From positions 1 through 47,993 of IMG/VR virus record IMGVR_UViG_3300021090_000034: a DNA stretch of 47,993 nucleotides. One strand, 5' to 3'. The DNA is from a virus. Shown here piece by piece: positions 2,790-47,993 of the stretch. Positions within the stretch are counted from its first letter, which is position 1. Each line of letters starts with the position of its first letter. A program made the translations under genes and the position numbers. The notes below the pieces were generated by a model. It was not told the DNA's origin and made no database searches. It was given only the letters and a program-made list of their open reading frames with translations.

Positions 2790-2901
2790 TTGGCGCGACA
2801 ATTTTGGCAAGTCGTGGAGCATGTGGCTCGACTACATGAGGGCGAAACACGAAGGCCGTATCTATGGCCCATTTCAAAAGGAGATGCTTAATGCTTCTTG
2901 A
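2752..2901 (+). CDS. Hypothetical small protein (49 aa)
   Basis: GTG start with a well placed Shine-Dalgarno (GGAG six bases upstream), overlapping the end of the zinc-ribbon gene by 38 bp in another frame. The product is aromatic-rich (WRDNFGKSWSMWLDYM). Its TGA stop supplies the first unit of the pentamer array that follows, so the array starts exactly at the end of this gene. Without homology evidence the call is moderate to low. Confidence 0.4.
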   Translation: MRKTCNVTESAYDWRDNFGKSWSMWLDYMRAKHEGRIYGPFQKEMLNAS

Positions 2902-2992
2902 AGCTTAGTAAAGTATAGCGCCGTGCAGTACAGGTAGTCGAGTAGCGTATAGCACAGGTTAGCATAGTCATGAGCAGTTTAGCGAAGTATAG
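2899..2992 (+). repeat. Pentamer-phased array A (19 units)
   Basis: The spacer can be parsed as consecutive 5-nt units (tgaag cttag taaag tatag ...) with one 4-nt slip at 2934-2937. All 19 units end in G and 16 end in AG. The units are otherwise degenerate, so this is a phase-locked array and not a simple tandem repeat. It begins at the stop of the upstream ORF and ends in tatag-gagtct, which contains the Shine-Dalgarno of the gene at 3002. The three consecutive units tttag-cgaag-tatag recur in array B. Not CRISPR: there are no constant long repeats. Confidence 0.8.
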
Positions 2993-3001
2993 GAGTCTGC
3001 T

Positions 3002-3550
3002 ATGAGATACATAAACCTAACTATTAAGGGCATAACTCCCTTAATGACCTTTCCCTTTACAGATGCAGACCTAGCAGCGGTCAGCAGTGGAATCAAACAA
3101 ACCAGTACCACAAAACAAAAGGACTCTATACAGGAGAGGGCAGCTAAAAAAGTATACTATACTCGCGATAATAAACCTTGCATACCTAAAGCCTTATTGG
3201 ACGCTACATTACGAGGTGCTGCCGTACTACTTAAAATAGCATCTCCGTATGCCTGCATAGATGTAGAAGATGCTGAGGCAGTTATTCAATCCGAACATCC
3301 TTTTGAGGTAGACGTTCGGAGCGCAGTGAATCCACACACTAAAGGTAGGATGGAGGTTGTAAGACCTATTTGGTATGACTGGACCCTCGACTTTAGTGTA
3401 GGCTATGAGGAGACCCTAATAAGTGAATCCATACTTAGAGATGTAGTGGATGCAGCCGGTATTAGGCAGGGTATAGGTTCTTATAGACCTGCTGCTAAGG
3501 GCAGTTATGGTAAGTTCAAAGTCATAGGATGGGAATCTAGGACACTTTAG
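3002..3550 (+). CDS. Conserved phage protein of unknown function; possible RAMP-like fold
   Basis: 182 aa, AT-rich codons (CTA, TTA, ATA, AGA) unlike the neighbours, so probably acquired. ATG six bases after AGGAG. The N-terminus (INLTIKGITPLM) looks like the first strand of a ferredoxin-like domain, and the C-terminus has a glycine-rich stretch (GIRQGIGSYRP, then GSYGKFKV) reminiscent of the G-rich loop of RAMP/Cas7-type RNA-binding proteins. I recall similar uncharacterised proteins in other phages with an ITPLL-type start and a GIG...RP...FG.F end. The RAMP comparison is inference from motifs. Both flanks are pentamer-phased arrays. Confidence 0.75.
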   Translation: MRYINLTIKGITPLMTFPFTDADLAAVSSGIKQTSTTKQKDSIQERAAKKVYYTRDNKPCIPKALLDATLRGAAVLLKIASPYACIDVEDAEAVIQSEHPFEVDVRSAVNPHTKGRMEVVRPIWYDWTLDFSVGYEETLISESILRDVVDAAGIRQGIGSYRPAAKGSYGKFKVIGWESRTL

Positions 3551-3685
3551 TATAGTTCCGTTCAGTAGCGCTCAGCCTAGCTCAGCCGCGTTTAGCGAAG
3601 TATAGACTAACTTAATACAGCCACGCTTAGCGCAGTCCAGTGCCGTAGGGTTCAGTAACGCTCAGTAGAGCAGAGTATAGTATAG
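3546..3685 (+). repeat. Pentamer-phased array B (28 units, no slip)
   Basis: 140 bp divide exactly into 28 pentamers (tttag tatag ttccg ttcag tagcg ctcag ...). By direct count, 27 start with a pyrimidine, 26 end in G, and the fourth base is A in 21 and C in 6. Consensus YNN(A/C)G. The first unit contains the TAG stop of the gene at 3002, and the last is followed by gagtct, providing the Shine-Dalgarno of the polymerase C-half. The array therefore fills the whole intergenic region. Array A has the same construction and the same 3' end (tataggagtct). Confidence 0.85.
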
Positions 3686-3696
3686 GAGTCTTGCCA

Positions 3697-4509
3697 GTGT
3701 TGTTAGAATTTGATTTAGCAGGAGCTGAATGGGTTATTGTAGCCTATGACTCAGGCGATGCTAACATGATAGCAGTGGTGGAGAGCGGAGAGTCGCCACA
3801 TGTCAACACCGGCGCGTTGATGACCAGCCTGCCAAAGGACATCATCGAGCTGGAACAGAAGTTCTTGCAGAGTGCCACTGATCCTGACACGATCTACGAG
3901 TTGCGCAAGGAGCATGTACCGGAGATATTCGACCTATTCGCGCGCTTTCTGCCTCGCAACATGACCGTGCGGCAGATGGGCAAGAAATCGAACCACGGCA
4001 TGAACTACAACGTGAAGTATCGCACCTTCGCCCTTGTGAACGAGATCAGCGAAACCGATGCGATCAAGATGATTGAGCTATACAACATGGTTGCCTACCC
4101 GACGTTGCCTCAGTGGCGCAAGGACTTGCAGAAGGAGTTTCGTGATAACAAACGCTTCATATACAACCTGCTCGGCAAGGGCGTCAGACTGCTCGACAAG
4201 CCAGGGACTGATTTGTGGAATGCTCTTGCAGCGTATAAACCCCAATCGACCGTGGCTGATATCATACGGCGCGCGCTCGTGGGTATCTATCGCGACGCTT
4301 CCGAACTTGCCGCGCCCATGCGACTGCTTGCCCCAGTGCATGATAGCATCCTGCTAGATTATCCTGCCGAGCCGAAGGAGCGCTTGCGCGATTTCATTGC
4401 GCTGATGAAGTCCTACATGACTGTGGAACTAGAAACGAAAGGTCGGAAGTTCACACTGAAAGTTGACGTTAAGGGCGGTCCCAATTGGGGCGCAATGAAA
4501 GGAATGTAA
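3697..4509 (+). CDS. DNA polymerase A, C-terminal half (palm and fingers)
   Basis: 270 aa carrying the three catalytic motifs of family A polymerases: motif A (EFDLAGAEW, D6 and E11), motif B with R92-x3-K96-x3-H100-x3-Y104, matching the spacing of E. coli R754/K758/F762/Y766, and motif C (V214-H215-D216). It begins where the N-half (45296-46954; end also at 3-269) stops, so the two together reconstitute one polymerase. GTG at 3697 is chosen because AGGAG lies eight bases upstream; TTG at 3691 would be too close. The first roughly 30 codons are AT-rich like the upstream cassette, then usage returns to the genome norm. Histidine at the F762-equivalent position is unusual. Confidence 0.9.
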   Translation: MLLEFDLAGAEWVIVAYDSGDANMIAVVESGESPHVNTGALMTSLPKDIIELEQKFLQSATDPDTIYELRKEHVPEIFDLFARFLPRNMTVRQMGKKSNHGMNYNVKYRTFALVNEISETDAIKMIELYNMVAYPTLPQWRKDLQKEFRDNKRFIYNLLGKGVRLLDKPGTDLWNALAAYKPQSTVADIIRRALVGIYRDASELAAPMRLLAPVHDSILLDYPAEPKERLRDFIALMKSYMTVELETKGRKFTLKVDVKGGPNWGAMKGM

Positions 4510-4968: not shown

Positions 4969-6405
4969 CTACCAGCTACCGTTGCCCCAAGAGCCTATTC
5001 CGCCGCCAAAGCCTCCGCTGAACATAGGATATAGATAGTCCTTGTTCAGTGGAGGTGGCGCAGGTGGAGGATCGATCCGAACCGGACCGGATGACATCCT
5101 GTCAGATGGCGCGCCATAAAGATCGCCGAACGAACCGCCGAAGATGCGGTTCAATTCTTCGCGCGAGAACGAATTTTGCTGGGCATTACCTACGCCAGCT
5201 CCACCCATACCACTGCTAGGATCGCTGGAGGCGATCCCTTGCGGCCGAGACGAGGGCGCGGCGCTAGCAGCCGATTGCGACACAGGCGGATTCTCGCCGT
5301 ACACATTGCTGCCGCCCGGCGTTAGACCCTCAAGCTCTGGACGACGCTGTGGCATGGGAGGGGCTTGCGCCCCTACACCTACGCCTCCGCCTGGCGGTTG
5401 ATAAGGCGCGCCAGTTTGCGCATCGATCGGAGCGCCTCCGAACTGCACCCCGTTCGGCAAGGTCATGCCCATGGTGCCCTTCGGCTCTGCCGCAACAGGC
5501 TTGCCATTCGGCTGGACCTCCTGCGCCAGCGTCTTGTACGAGTGCAAGCCAATGTCTTGGCCAAAGCTCGTATCAGGAGCGTCCTGCGGAAGCCGATCCG
5601 TGATTTGCTTCGTCGAGGGCATATCAGCGGCCATGCGCTTGCTGGGCATATCTGGAACAGCATCTGGCGCGCGTAGCTTGGCGCGGCCTGTGCTCTCCTT
5701 CGGTCCCCAGTCACCGCCACGGCCTTCGCGATTGTAGCGCGCCGACCACATGCCGGTGAAGTCTCGGCTGGAGACATTCTCTACCGAACCAAACTGCTTC
5801 TTCATCTGCGCGGGCACATTGCCCCAAATGGCCCTTTTAGCCCAGCGCTCGCCCTTCTGACGGCCTTCGCCAGTAGCGTGCATATTTTGCCAGGCCGGCG
5901 CATCAGGATTGCGCAGATGGTTCACACCGCCCTGCTCACCCTGCTGATGCATCATGTACAGATCAGGCCCTGTCGGAGCGCGACCCATCTTCTTCTCGAA
6001 GGCCGCAGACTTATCCTTGATGACGTTCGCGAAGGCTCGCGTATTTGCTTCTGGGTTGTAGATGCTGCCTTTACCGCCCCCGCGTTTAAATTCAGCATTT
6101 GACAACTGGAATAAGCCCTTGTATGAGCCTGTCTTCGCGCCTGGATTGAACGAGCTTTCGATGCCTGCGAACCTGCGCATGACATCAAACGACACACCTG
6201 ACTCGCCAGCTACCCGGCGCATCATGTCGAAGAGAGATTGGTTGTTACTGCTCCTAGCCATGTGTCTATGTCTGCGTTCGTGTTTATGTTTGTGGTACTT
6301 ATGTCCGCTGTGATGCTTATGGTGCTTCCGCTGTCTGGCTTCCGCAGGTACTGCGGAGGCGCAGAGTACAACTAAGGCGCACAGCGCCCATAGAATCTTC
6401 CCCAT
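4969..6405 (-). CDS. SLT-type lytic transglycosylase, virion-associated
   Basis: 478 aa. The N-terminus looks like a signal peptide (ILWALCALVVLCASAVPAEA), followed by a striking His/Lys/Arg-rich tract at about residues 24-48. Then comes a goose-lysozyme/SLT-like domain with catalytic glutamate E83 (AGIESSFNP) and the GLFQLS motif near residue 97. The rest is Pro/Gly/Ser-rich and probably disordered. As last gene of the virion operon it is likely an ejected internal protein that opens peptidoglycan during DNA entry. An internal ATG at residue 49 would give a form without signal peptide and His tract; neither start has a clear Shine-Dalgarno. Confidence 0.75.
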   Translation of the reverse strand: MGKILWALCALVVLCASAVPAEARQRKHHKHHSGHKYHKHKHERRHRHMARSSNNQSLFDMMRRVAGESGVSFDVMRRFAGIESSFNPGAKTGSYKGLFQLSNAEFKRGGGKGSIYNPEANTRAFANVIKDKSAAFEKKMGRAPTGPDLYMMHQQGEQGGVNHLRNPDAPAWQNMHATGEGRQKGERWAKRAIWGNVPAQMKKQFGSVENVSSRDFTGMWSARYNREGRGGDWGPKESTGRAKLRAPDAVPDMPSKRMAADMPSTKQITDRLPQDAPDTSFGQDIGLHSYKTLAQEVQPNGKPVAAEPKGTMGMTLPNGVQFGGAPIDAQTGAPYQPPGGGVGVGAQAPPMPQRRPELEGLTPGGSNVYGENPPVSQSAASAAPSSRPQGIASSDPSSGMGGAGVGNAQQNSFSREELNRIFGGSFGDLYGAPSDRMSSGPVRIDPPPAPPPLNKDYLYPMFSGGFGGGIGSWGNGSW

Positions 6406-42858: not shown

Positions 42859-43113
42859 ATGTCAAAGGGTGACTGGGACTTGGTTGGAATAATCGTGCTG
42901 ATCCTAACATTCCCGTTTTGGATACAGCTCGCCTTCATGGCGGCCATCCCGCTCGCCATGGTATGGATCGAAATTTTCAAGTCGCACGGATTGTTGATTA
43001 CCGTTCTTGTGATCCTGACTACCGTGGCTCTTGTCGTGCTGCTACCAAGACGGCGCAACAGCTCGTCAAGGGAAATCAAGCGCTTCCTGGATGGCATGAA
43101 AGGACGTGAGTAA
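42859..43113 (+). CDS. Two-TM membrane protein (84 aa)
   Basis: AGGAGG before ATG. Two hydrophobic segments (LVGIIVLILTFPFWIQLAFM and HGLLITVLVILTTVALVVLL) then a basic tail. Function unknown; small membrane proteins in early regions sometimes block superinfection. Confidence 0.55.
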   Translation: MSKGDWDLVGIIVLILTFPFWIQLAFMAAIPLAMVWIEIFKSHGLLITVLVILTTVALVVLLPRRRNSSSREIKRFLDGMKGRE

Positions 43114-44859: not shown

Positions 44860-45306
44860 GTGCTGAGCGAGGAGGACGCAAGGAAGGTAGCTAAGTTCGT
44901 TCGATTGCTAGGTAGCGACAACGAGCACGAAGTTTACGCCGCTGCCAAGAAGATGAAAGAGGCTCTTGCAAAGAGCGGAATGAACCTAAGCGACCTTGGC
45001 AATGTGCTGGAACAATTGCCAAAGATCATTTCGCTGGTCAACAGTGGCGCGGCCTTTAAGCCAGCTCCGCCGCCAGAGCCTGAGAAATCCAGCACGATTG
45101 ATACGGTTGGCGATGCAGTGCGCTATGCCTACGAGATGCGAGGCAAGCTGCTGCCACGAGAACAGGAATTCATCGAGAGCGTCACAAGGCAGTACGACGC
45201 TGGCAAGACACTAACGCAGAAGCAGGTTGATTGGCTCAAGATTATCGCGCAAAAGCTAATGCGCCGCTATGGCTACAGGCCTCAAGAGAGTTTCCATGAC
45301 ATCTAA
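44860..45306 (+). CDS. Hypothetical protein (148 aa)
   Basis: GTG start with GAAGGAG upstream. Helical N-terminal part (EEDARKVAKFVRLLGSDNEH) resembling DUF2786-like small proteins, Pro-rich linker near residue 70, helical C-terminus. Overlaps the polymerase gene by 11 bp. Function unknown. Confidence 0.55.
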   Translation: MLSEEDARKVAKFVRLLGSDNEHEVYAAAKKMKEALAKSGMNLSDLGNVLEQLPKIISLVNSGAAFKPAPPPEPEKSSTIDTVGDAVRYAYEMRGKLLPREQEFIESVTRQYDAGKTLTQKQVDWLKIIAQKLMRRYGYRPQESFHDI

Positions 45307-46954
45307 GTGGACGCAGTACGAAGCCGGCGATCCAGAAGCCAAGGTGCTAATTCTCGGCCAGGCACCCAGCTATATGGAAGTGCGGCAAAGTGAGCCGCTA
45401 GTCGGTCCGGCTGGAACGATCTTCAATGAGTGCCTAGCTAAGACTGGCACAGCTCGGCGCAGCTTGTACATCGTGAACCTGTGGGAAGACCCAGTCTATA
45501 CGGATCGGCGCACGGGGCATATCTACAATTGCGAAGGCGGTCAGCTCCTGTGGGGTCCGCGCCTCACCGAGCTAGGCCGCGAGCTAGCCATGCCGACCAT
45601 GCGCCGCATTCGCGACAGTGGTGCGAACGTCATCCTTGCGCTCGGTCAGCAAGCGCTTGAGATTTGCACTGGCAAGAACAAGGAGATCATGAAGTGGCGC
45701 GGCTCGATCCTGTGGAGCGATACGTTCGAGCGAAAGATTATTGCGACCGTGCATCCTACTGCCGTCATCCATGGTCAGTACGTCTGGAAGTACCTAATCA
45801 TCAACGATCTAACGAAGGCGCTTGAAGAAGCCAAGACGCACGAATTGGTCCTGCCCAAGCGCGATATCCTAATTGAGCCCACGTTCGACGAGGTCATGGA
45901 TGCCTTTGCGCTCATTGAGCAGCTTGGCATTATAGCCACTGATATCGAGGTAGTCAACGAGCAGGTCTCGTGCTTCTGCCTATGCCCGACGCCGATGCAA
46001 GGCGTGGTTGTGCCTTTTGTGGACTCTGCTGGAGATTACTGGACCTTCGAAGAGGAAAAGCAGATATGGCTTCACTATGCGAGCGTCATGTCCAATCCGG
46101 ACATCATGAAAGTGAACCAGAATATTGTGGGCTTCGACGCCACATTCTTGCTAAGCAAGAACCGTATCCGTACCCGTGGACCGATTGGCGACACGATGAT
46201 TGGATACGGGATGCTTTATCCCGAATTCTCAAAGGATTTGGGCTTCCTAGGGAGTATCTACACTCGCGAGCCGTTCTGGAAGAACGAAGGCAAGATTTGG
46301 AAAACCATAGGGCAAGCGACCGGCGACAAGACCGAAGACTATAGAATGTTCTGGCTTTACAACGGCAAGGACGGATGCGTCGCGCTCGAATGTTGGTATC
46401 CTATCGAGCAAGAGCTGAAGCAGCTTGGTTTCTGGGAACAGTACCTTGAGGTGATCGACACACTTGATCCTATCTTGTTCATGTCCACGTTCGGCTTGCG
46501 CGTTTCGCGCGACGAGATCGAGCAGGCGAACTACGACCTGAACATCGAGATTGAGAAGCTGGAGATTGAGCTGGCGCGCGTTGCCGAGCGGCCCTTCAAT
46601 CCGAACAGCACCAAGCAGTGCGCCGAATATTTCTATGGCTTGAAGAAGATCAAACCGTATCTGAACCACAAGACCGGCAATGTCACGACCGATGACATGG
46701 CCCTATCGCGCATCTATCGCAAGACTGGCCTACTTGAAGCCAAGCTTGTGCAGGACATACGTAATAAGAAGAAGCTCAAAGGAACTTACATGGAAGTGGA
46801 GTTCGATGCGGACGGCCGCCTGCGCTGTTCGTGGAACACTCTTGGAACCTGGACGCGGCGCTTCTCTAGCGGTCAAACCATCTTCGGCACGGGGATGAAC
46901 CTACAGAATATTGACCCGCGCTTCAAGCGGTTCATCGTGGAGGAACAAAGATGA
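45296..46954 (+). CDS. DNA polymerase A, N-terminal half: uracil-DNA glycosylase + 3'-5' exonuclease + pre-motif-A polymerase segment
   Basis: 552 aa. Family 4-like uracil-DNA glycosylase: GQAP (21-24), PLVGPAG (34-40), HPT (153-155). DnaQ-type exonuclease: D216/E218 (ExoI), N274 and D281 (ExoII), Y355/D359 (ExoIII), so proofreading should be active. Then the thumb/palm start, TRRFSS (520-525) and NLQNI (535-539), and a stop just before motif A. Motifs A, B and C are in a separate ORF at 3697-4509. The two parts presumably reassemble as one enzyme. Glycosylase-polymerase fusions are known in phages; this split position is the odd point. Confidence 0.9.
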   Translation: MTSKWTQYEAGDPEAKVLILGQAPSYMEVRQSEPLVGPAGTIFNECLAKTGTARRSLYIVNLWEDPVYTDRRTGHIYNCEGGQLLWGPRLTELGRELAMPTMRRIRDSGANVILALGQQALEICTGKNKEIMKWRGSILWSDTFERKIIATVHPTAVIHGQYVWKYLIINDLTKALEEAKTHELVLPKRDILIEPTFDEVMDAFALIEQLGIIATDIEVVNEQVSCFCLCPTPMQGVVVPFVDSAGDYWTFEEEKQIWLHYASVMSNPDIMKVNQNIVGFDATFLLSKNRIRTRGPIGDTMIGYGMLYPEFSKDLGFLGSIYTREPFWKNEGKIWKTIGQATGDKTEDYRMFWLYNGKDGCVALECWYPIEQELKQLGFWEQYLEVIDTLDPILFMSTFGLRVSRDEIEQANYDLNIEIEKLEIELARVAERPFNPNSTKQCAEYFYGLKKIKPYLNHKTGNVTTDDMALSRIYRKTGLLEAKLVQDIRNKKKLKGTYMEVEFDADGRLRCSWNTLGTWTRRFSSGQTIFGTGMNLQNIDPRFKRFIVEEQR

Positions 46955-47037
46955 TGGGAGGTATTGCCGAGGGCATCCTAATAGTGCTCGTGGTGTTGCT
47001 GATCTTTGGGCTGCTAGTTCCTTGGGAGGACGACTGA
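46951..47037 (+). CDS. Extra micro membrane protein, only in right copy (28 aa)
   Basis: One hydrophobic helix (GILIVLVVLLIFGLLVPW) and an acidic end, inserted in frame-overlap between the polymerase stop and the conserved 27-aa micro protein. Its absence at 266 shows a recent gene gain or loss. Confidence 0.5.
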   Translation: MMGGIAEGILIVLVVLLIFGLLVPWEDD

Positions 47038-47120
47038 TGATGTTCACGTTGGGCTTCATCCTAGGCTTCATGCTCGGAGCCTTGGCATTAGCCTACCTTA
47101 TCGACAGGACAAATCAATGA
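47037..47120 (+). CDS. Micro membrane protein (27 aa), right copy
   Basis: One residue different from the product of 266-349 (Y for F in the helix). Start overlaps the preceding stop (TGATG type). Confidence 0.55.
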   Translation: MMFTLGFILGFMLGALALAYLIDRTNQ

Positions 47121-47212
47121 TGCTAGCCGAACTAGCCCCTCTGGGCTATCTGATCGTGGGCGCAATCGTGATGCTCGCGGTTATCACCATCTTCGCACTC
47201 TTGGGACTGTGA
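47117..47212 (+). CDS. Micro membrane protein (31 aa), right copy
   Basis: Counterpart of 346-441 with conservative substitutions only (V/I, M/T) in the membrane helix. Confidence 0.55.
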   Translation: MMLAELAPLGYLIVGAIVMLAVITIFALLGL

Positions 47213-47216
47213 TGCC

Positions 47217-47942
47217 ATGGCAACGAAACTGACAGACGATGAAGCCTTAGAAGTCATCAGACGCCTAGAACAACTTGGTATTTGGAAAACCAGCGCCAAC
47301 AATTTCACGGTTGCGGTGCGTGCCTTTCAGCGCGTCAACAATCTGAGGGTTGACGGTGTTGTTGGCCCAAAGACCCGCGCAAAGCTCTGGCCCGAGCCCA
47401 TGCCTCAGCGCGATGCCGACACTGTGCCCAGCTGGCTGCCTGCCGGTCATCCTGGCAATAATTGGCCTGCGCAGCGCGATTGCCCAAGCTTCTTCGGAGC
47501 CGTAGGCTCCAACCAGACAAGATGCGTCCTGCCCTACGTGATGCGCATTGCCTGGAGCAAACAGCAAACCGTCAAAAGCTTCGAATGCCACATGAAGGTG
47601 AAGGACTCAATTCAAAGCATCTTCGCCGAGATCATGAAAGCCTACGACGTCAATTCGCGCAAGGCGCTTGGACTCAACCTATTCGGCGGCTGCCTGAACG
47701 TGCGCAAGATGACAGGCGGCTCGAATTGGTCCATGCATGCATGGGGCATCGCAGTAGACATCGATCCATCAAGGAATGAGTTCACGTCGAGGCGCGAACC
47801 CAGCCGGCCAGGACATCCACATGCCAAGATGGCTGATCCTGAGTACGATAAATATTGGCAAATCGTAGAGAGCACAGGAGCTGTCAGCCTCGGCAGACAT
47901 TCCAACATTGATTGGATGCACTGGCAGTTCGCTCGCCTTTAG
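47217..47942 (+). CDS. Endolysin (241 aa), right-copy allele
   Basis: Same domain plan as 443-1171. Catalytic half nearly unchanged, including HAWGIAVDID and DWMHWQF. N-terminal binding domain differs in many residues (ALEVIRRLEQLGIWKTSANN), as if exchanged or adapted to a different wall ligand. Confidence 0.88.
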   Translation: MATKLTDDEALEVIRRLEQLGIWKTSANNFTVAVRAFQRVNNLRVDGVVGPKTRAKLWPEPMPQRDADTVPSWLPAGHPGNNWPAQRDCPSFFGAVGSNQTRCVLPYVMRIAWSKQQTVKSFECHMKVKDSIQSIFAEIMKAYDVNSRKALGLNLFGGCLNVRKMTGGSNWSMHAWGIAVDIDPSRNEFTSRREPSRPGHPHAKMADPEYDKYWQIVESTGAVSLGRHSNIDWMHWQFARL

Positions 47943-47952
47943 AGGAAGCAAA

Positions 47953-47993
47953 ATGAACAGTCTTACACTATGGGTATTAGCGGCTATGTTCGC
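47953..47993 (+). CDS. One-TM protein, right copy, truncated by window end
   Basis: First 13 codons of the protein that is complete at 1182-1340; identical as far as the window goes. Confidence 0.6.
   Translation, partial: MNSLTLWVLAAMF

Follow-up and report, generated by a model that had tools for sequence, protein, structure and literature searches.

What reads, or builds, DNA in steps of five bases on both sides of a single small gene, and what would such a gene be doing next to a phage DNA polymerase? The question arises at 2899-3691 of the window, by which we mean the whole 47,993-nt stretch of viral DNA that was analysed, where the spacers before and after one open reading frame are filled with degenerate pentamers. 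The features concerned are as follows.

2899-2992, plus strand: spacer A, putative vrRNA array A, 19 YNN(A/C)G units, of which one has slipped to 4 nt.
2988-2998, plus strand: TATAGGAGTCT, final unit of array A and Shine-Dalgarno sequence of vipr.
3002-3550, plus strand: vipr, encoding a 182-aa Cas7-like RAMP protein (phrog_4652).
3546-3685, plus strand: spacer B, exactly 28 pentamers with zero slips.
3681-3691, plus strand: TATAGGAGTCT, unit 28 of B and Shine-Dalgarno sequence of the polymerase C-half gene.

The unit counts and coordinates given for both spacers in the earlier note were reproduced, and the phase proved exceptional. In spacer B, 27 of the 28 units start with C or T and 26 end in G, and position 4 is A in 21 units, C in 6, G in 1 and T in 0. 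The 5-nt phase information of B amounts to 106.3 bits, compared with 25.4 bits for the best other 140-nt stretch in the window and with a mean of 9.6 bits (maximum 35) over 2,000 dinucleotide shuffles. Spacer A consists of 18 pentamers and one 4-nt unit, GTAG (2934-2937), and all 19 units end in G; with the one slip allowed, YNN(A/C)G occurs in 15 of 18 units, as against at most 8 elsewhere on both strands of the window, and when scored without the slip the spacer is unexceptional within the window. Equal phase in ordinary spacers had been set beforehand as grounds for abandoning the pattern, and none comparable is present in the window. Also seen in the sequence, as first described, are array starts in stop codons (A begins inside the preceding gene's TGA at 2899-2901; B begins at 3546, where the preceding gene's stop TAG occupies 3548-3550), the TATAGGAGTCT ends, and the 15-nt TTTAG-CGAAG-TATAG common to A and B. 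Tandem Repeats Finder reports no repeat at the arrays because the units are too degenerate. The pentamers of spacer B make more sense as a pair of guides, one running over units 1-12 and the other over units 15-27.

3546-3605, plus strand: putative vrRNA array B1, units 1-12, with terminal TTTAG CGAAG TATAG.
3606-3615, plus strand: linker ACTAA CTTAA, in phase, joining B1 to B2 as judged from the sequence.
3616-3680, plus strand: putative vrRNA array B2, units 15-27, with a guide that the 1-nt skip rule decodes.

B2 thus counts 13 units, B1 12, and A either 7 + 11 or 19, depending on how the slip is treated.

To the profile match and the predicted Cas7-type fold we owe the identification of the 3002-3550 product, which is a RAMP of the Vipr family. 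The protein has no Pfam match; tblastn finds homologues of 21-27% identity in mycobacteriophages, phiHSIC, LESphi2 and the Felixounavirus/Suspvirus group, including phage SUSP1. A family profile made from the window protein and 12 homologues matches PDB chain 36pp_D ("SUSP1 Vipr protein") with E = 9.2e-64, and the window protein as a single sequence matches the same chain with E = 3.8e-4. The AlphaFold2 model computed on that family alignment has a pLDDT of 86, and its best 50 PDB matches in Foldseek are all CRISPR type III or VII effector subunits of the Cas7 family (best E = 1.7e-6). Single-protein scans of IMG/VR and GTDB returned no close Vipr relatives. The locus holds a lone RAMP gene, with neither a CRISPR array or CRISPR-type repeats nor a multi-gene cas operon, and no additional gene (vap) separates the arrays from the phage genes on either side.

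The arrays had been thought to resemble no named element, but an element of this kind was published in April 2026 as VIPR (Viral Interference Programmable Repeat), a CRISPR-related phage weapon composed of Vipr and of vrRNAs with 9-16 YNNGG repeats (PMC13142463). The NN bases of a vrRNA pair with double-stranded DNA, and one base, mostly at a codon wobble position, is skipped per step; the published systems act against competing elements, and the SUSP1 VIPR blocks transcription (PMC13142463). A structured 3' tail is conserved in the SUSP1 clade, the accessory gene vap is typical without being stated to be universal, and all VIPR types are said to follow GGY/NN "or a related consensus" (PMC13142463). 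Set against the published GGY/NN, the (A/C)GY/NN of the window fits only as such a related consensus. Among the 20 Vipr loci that we scanned, 18 have pentamer arrays adjoining vipr, mostly of the YNNGG form, so that the case envisaged in the earlier note, related phages with the same gene and unphased spacers, gives way to one in which the arrays are phased. Position 4 is loose in the units of the phiHSIC array. A Vipr locus in a Dechloromonas MAG (L088, 3553-3727) carries two arrays that are strictly CNNAG, a non-GG repeat type, and a Vipr homologue in a Clostridia MAG (L086, 3428-3482) has YNNNG units in which position 4 is free. A scan of IMG/VR with TTTAGCGAAGTATAG yielded 25 contigs, none with a Vipr match, and the two high-phase contigs among them are 15-nt pentapeptide-repeat genes. 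By protein, array and code the locus is a member of VIPR, and its arrays are, as predicted from their sequence, the vrRNAs of a VIPR with a variant consensus. The proposal that they act as an RNA scaffold for a filament-forming protein came close, in that gene 3002 encodes a Cas7-like RAMP, and missed the guide role. A search for a structured 3' tail showed no unusual folding in either spacer and no Rfam match, and for covariation analysis there were no close relatives.

Membership by code was examined by decoding B2 with the SUSP1 rule. The comparison uses L011, an IMG/VR contig with a polymerase C-half 87% identical to that of the window and the same gene neighbourhood, without vipr.

6001-6039 of L011, antisense to the gene: target of B2; the skip falls on the wobble base.

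Read with a 1-nt skip, the NN bases of B2 match the first 13 codons of the L011 polymerase C-half at 25 of 26 positions, and at the single miss (unit 17) a U.G pair would form. With skips of 0, 2 or 3 the score never exceeds 20/26, and when the NN order of B2 is shuffled the maximum is 22 over 215 kb of relatives' sequence and 18-20 over 710 kb. When all IMG/VR contigs were scanned with 18 decoded B2 bases, two were hit, each at the start codon of the polymerase C-half gene, and one of the two belongs to a phage with a polymerase of only about 40% identity. The match is 24/26 in L049, which likewise has a polymerase of about 40% protein identity. In each of the 29 loci compared (the window and 28 related ones) B2 has its single best site at the polymerase start, with 19-25 of 26 positions matched, although these loci are homologous and hence not independent tests of B2. 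The stretch targeted encodes catalytic motif A. Compared by eye, the letters at unit positions 1 and 4 do not obviously follow the target bases that are skipped. This tests the VIPR code independently, in that the SUSP1 rule decodes a guide in a divergent member with a different consensus to a well-defined target that makes biological sense, and it bears out the view that something reads the sequence in five-base steps; a DNA-binding protein of 5-nt register or a patterned synthesis reaction, both once considered, is unneeded, the NN positions being a DNA-recognition guide code. Neither vipr nor an array lies upstream of the polymerase in the 28 related loci, and none was found in about 660 kb of the relatives' genomes. 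The earlier note was right to call the 3002 gene acquired. At the place of the cassette, L011 has two small ORFs (5626-6077; 83 and 64 aa) with no Pfam match, the second of which resembles by eye the start of an HNH endonuclease.

The window has its own homologue of this target, directly downstream of array B2.

3697-4509, plus strand: C-half of a split family A DNA polymerase, with motif A at its N-terminus.
3697-3735, minus strand: the carrier's counterpart of the B2 target, covering 13 codons from the start, 21 of 26 Watson-Crick.
45269-46954, plus strand: polymerase N-half, with an N-terminal UDG-like domain.

For the C-half gene, GTG 3697 is a more probable start codon than TTG 3691; some 3.5 kb of the circular map separate the two halves, and the split is common to L011. 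Five of the 13 dinucleotides that the guide reads carry a mismatch in the own allele, all of the G.U/G.T type. Its Leu codons are TTG, TTA and TTA and its start is GTG, compared with CTG, CTG, CTA and ATG in L011; the fifth mismatch, at unit 17, is shared with L011 and most relatives. Within these 13 codons, it is only at the Leu and start codons that a change which leaves the amino acid unaltered touches guide-read bases, and there the Leu codons of the 28 relatives are CTN except in about five cases. As far as sequence comparison goes, the resident allele is a poorer match to B2 than are the relatives' alleles of the same protein sequence. Since all five mismatches could form G.U or G.T pairs, escape from the guide is not certain; the resident allele would probably escape at least in part.

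We consider it very likely that the locus is a minimal VIPR cassette (A, vipr, B1 and B2) aimed at the polymerase of co-infecting relatives, with an own allele that is mismatched to the guide. This reading draws on protein homology, the predicted fold, array anatomy, the decoded target, the allele differences and the VIPR-free relatives; from these we infer transcription, complex formation, repression and self-escape. The cassette would have inserted into the genome of a tailed phage, upstream of a split DNA polymerase gene, and its arrays would be transcribed as vrRNAs. Vipr would polymerise on the vrRNA, one subunit per pentamer, gripping (A/C)GY and exposing NN, and the exposed bases would pair with double-stranded DNA with one base skipped per step, on codon wobble positions. 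Vipr guided by B2 may then bind the polymerase start of relatives and block its transcription, as the SUSP1 VIPR does with its own target (PMC13142463), and silencing of the polymerase would stop the replication of co-infecting relatives. The function suggested, which does not appear in the main text of the VIPR paper, is one in which near relatives compete over a single essential gene of which the resident allele is mismatched to the guide.

How the own allele came to differ allows two readings. The first is a poison-and-antidote drive, in which VIPR would silence the cassette-free polymerase allele and a linked, altered allele would be poorly matched by the guide; we put it forward tentatively, as a possibility that falls somewhat short of probable. 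If it is true, only genomes carrying the whole block would replicate in mixed infections, and the block would spread by recombination. Cleave-and-rescue toxin-antidote drives and intronless homing endonucleases likewise attack the element-free allele and are linked to an altered, resistant one. The likeness to the window is in logic only, an analogy and not a homology, and the window differs in having no nuclease, so that it would neither cut nor copy. Guide matching to the own locus at 37 arrays of other Vipr loci is at chance level, bar two marginal cases, and the allele-targeting arrangement is therefore not general in this sample.

The second reading is that of an ordinary anti-competitor VIPR whose own-allele differences are accidental, brought in with an AT-rich donor segment without selection for escape. 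It may well be correct, although we would stop short of calling it probable. GC3 is 0.20 in codons 1-15 of the own polymerase, nearer to that of vipr (0.36) than to that of the polymerase beyond codon 28 (0.69), and the start is AT-rich at wobble positions that the guide leaves unread as well; an AT-rich donor may thus have supplied the own polymerase start together with the cassette. Accident sits less easily with the finding that all three Leu codons and the start differ, these being the sole silent guide-read positions, and with the CTN codons that the relatives have kept there.

A different role for B2 would be cis-regulation, the vrRNA binding the own polymerase start with its wobble pairs tolerated, as autoregulation. 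The array lies immediately upstream of the own polymerase gene, whose start is the best site in the own genome (21/26, the other 5 being wobble-type); however, the next-best site there already reaches 20/26, the VIPR-free phages match better than self (25/26 and 24/26 in L011 and L049), and the published role is against competing elements (PMC13142463), all of which makes autoregulation unlikely. That the arrays are drifted slippage or recombination repeats, or sites of a DNA-binding protein, devoid of guide function is extremely improbable, and the earlier doubt about replication slippage was justified. Although TATAG and CTCAG recur and A and B1 have 15 nt in common, conservation is position-specific with NN free, the array stands beside a RAMP gene, homologous loci show the same anatomy, and a rule fixed beforehand by others decodes the guide to its 25/26 target in a related phage.

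As an anti-competitor VIPR, the locus is closest to type II, known from Escherichia phage SUSP1 and a Pseudomonas fulva prophage (PMC13142463). Both have homologous Vipr RAMPs, some 20 kDa in size, with tandem pentamer vrRNAs on either side of the gene; in both, the NNs match a target in a competing phage when one base, at the codon wobble position, is skipped per step. The window differs in its consensus ((A/C)GY/NN and not GGY/NN), in that no structured 3' tail was found and no vap adjoins, in array ends that double as Shine-Dalgarno sequences, and in a target that is the rivals' allele of the polymerase gene which adjoins the cassette in the carrier; its Vipr is only 21-30% identical to the Viprs compared. 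Repeat consensus and locus logic are therefore variants of VIPR, with the guide aimed at a neighbour's cassette-free allele. The main text of the VIPR paper (PMC13142463) mentions neither a polymerase nor self, and its supplements may catalogue this variant. The Cas7 filaments of class 1 CRISPR systems (Csm3, Cmr4 and type VII Cas7) resemble the predicted assembly in their RAMP fold and in subunits spaced along a guide RNA with unpaired bases at intervals; the window differs from them in the absence of a CRISPR array or cas operon, in an RNA period of 5 nt as against 6 nt, and in a gapped target.

For arrays A and B1, scans of IMG/VR and of 29 related records gave no targets or chance-like ones only, and array A has no target at three or fewer mismatches in the 29 related records. 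A match in L038 was rejected as an array target, as it lies inside a larger gene (499-aa ORF). In the window itself, the start of an 84-aa gene at 42859-43113 (MSKGDWDLVGII) matches decoded B1 at 18 of 24 positions; the score is suggestive when gene starts alone are considered, but we do not claim it as a B1 target, since shuffles over 710 kb reach 17-19. The terminal units TTTAG CGAAG TATAG shared by A and B1 could be a handle or could reflect a common ATG-TCN-AAN gene start. The two ends of the record (1-1222 and 46686-47993) overlap imperfectly: identity is 98% over 271 nt and falls to 87% over a further 974 nt, as would be seen if sequences of two strains present together met where the circle was closed; the genome is about 46.7 kb.
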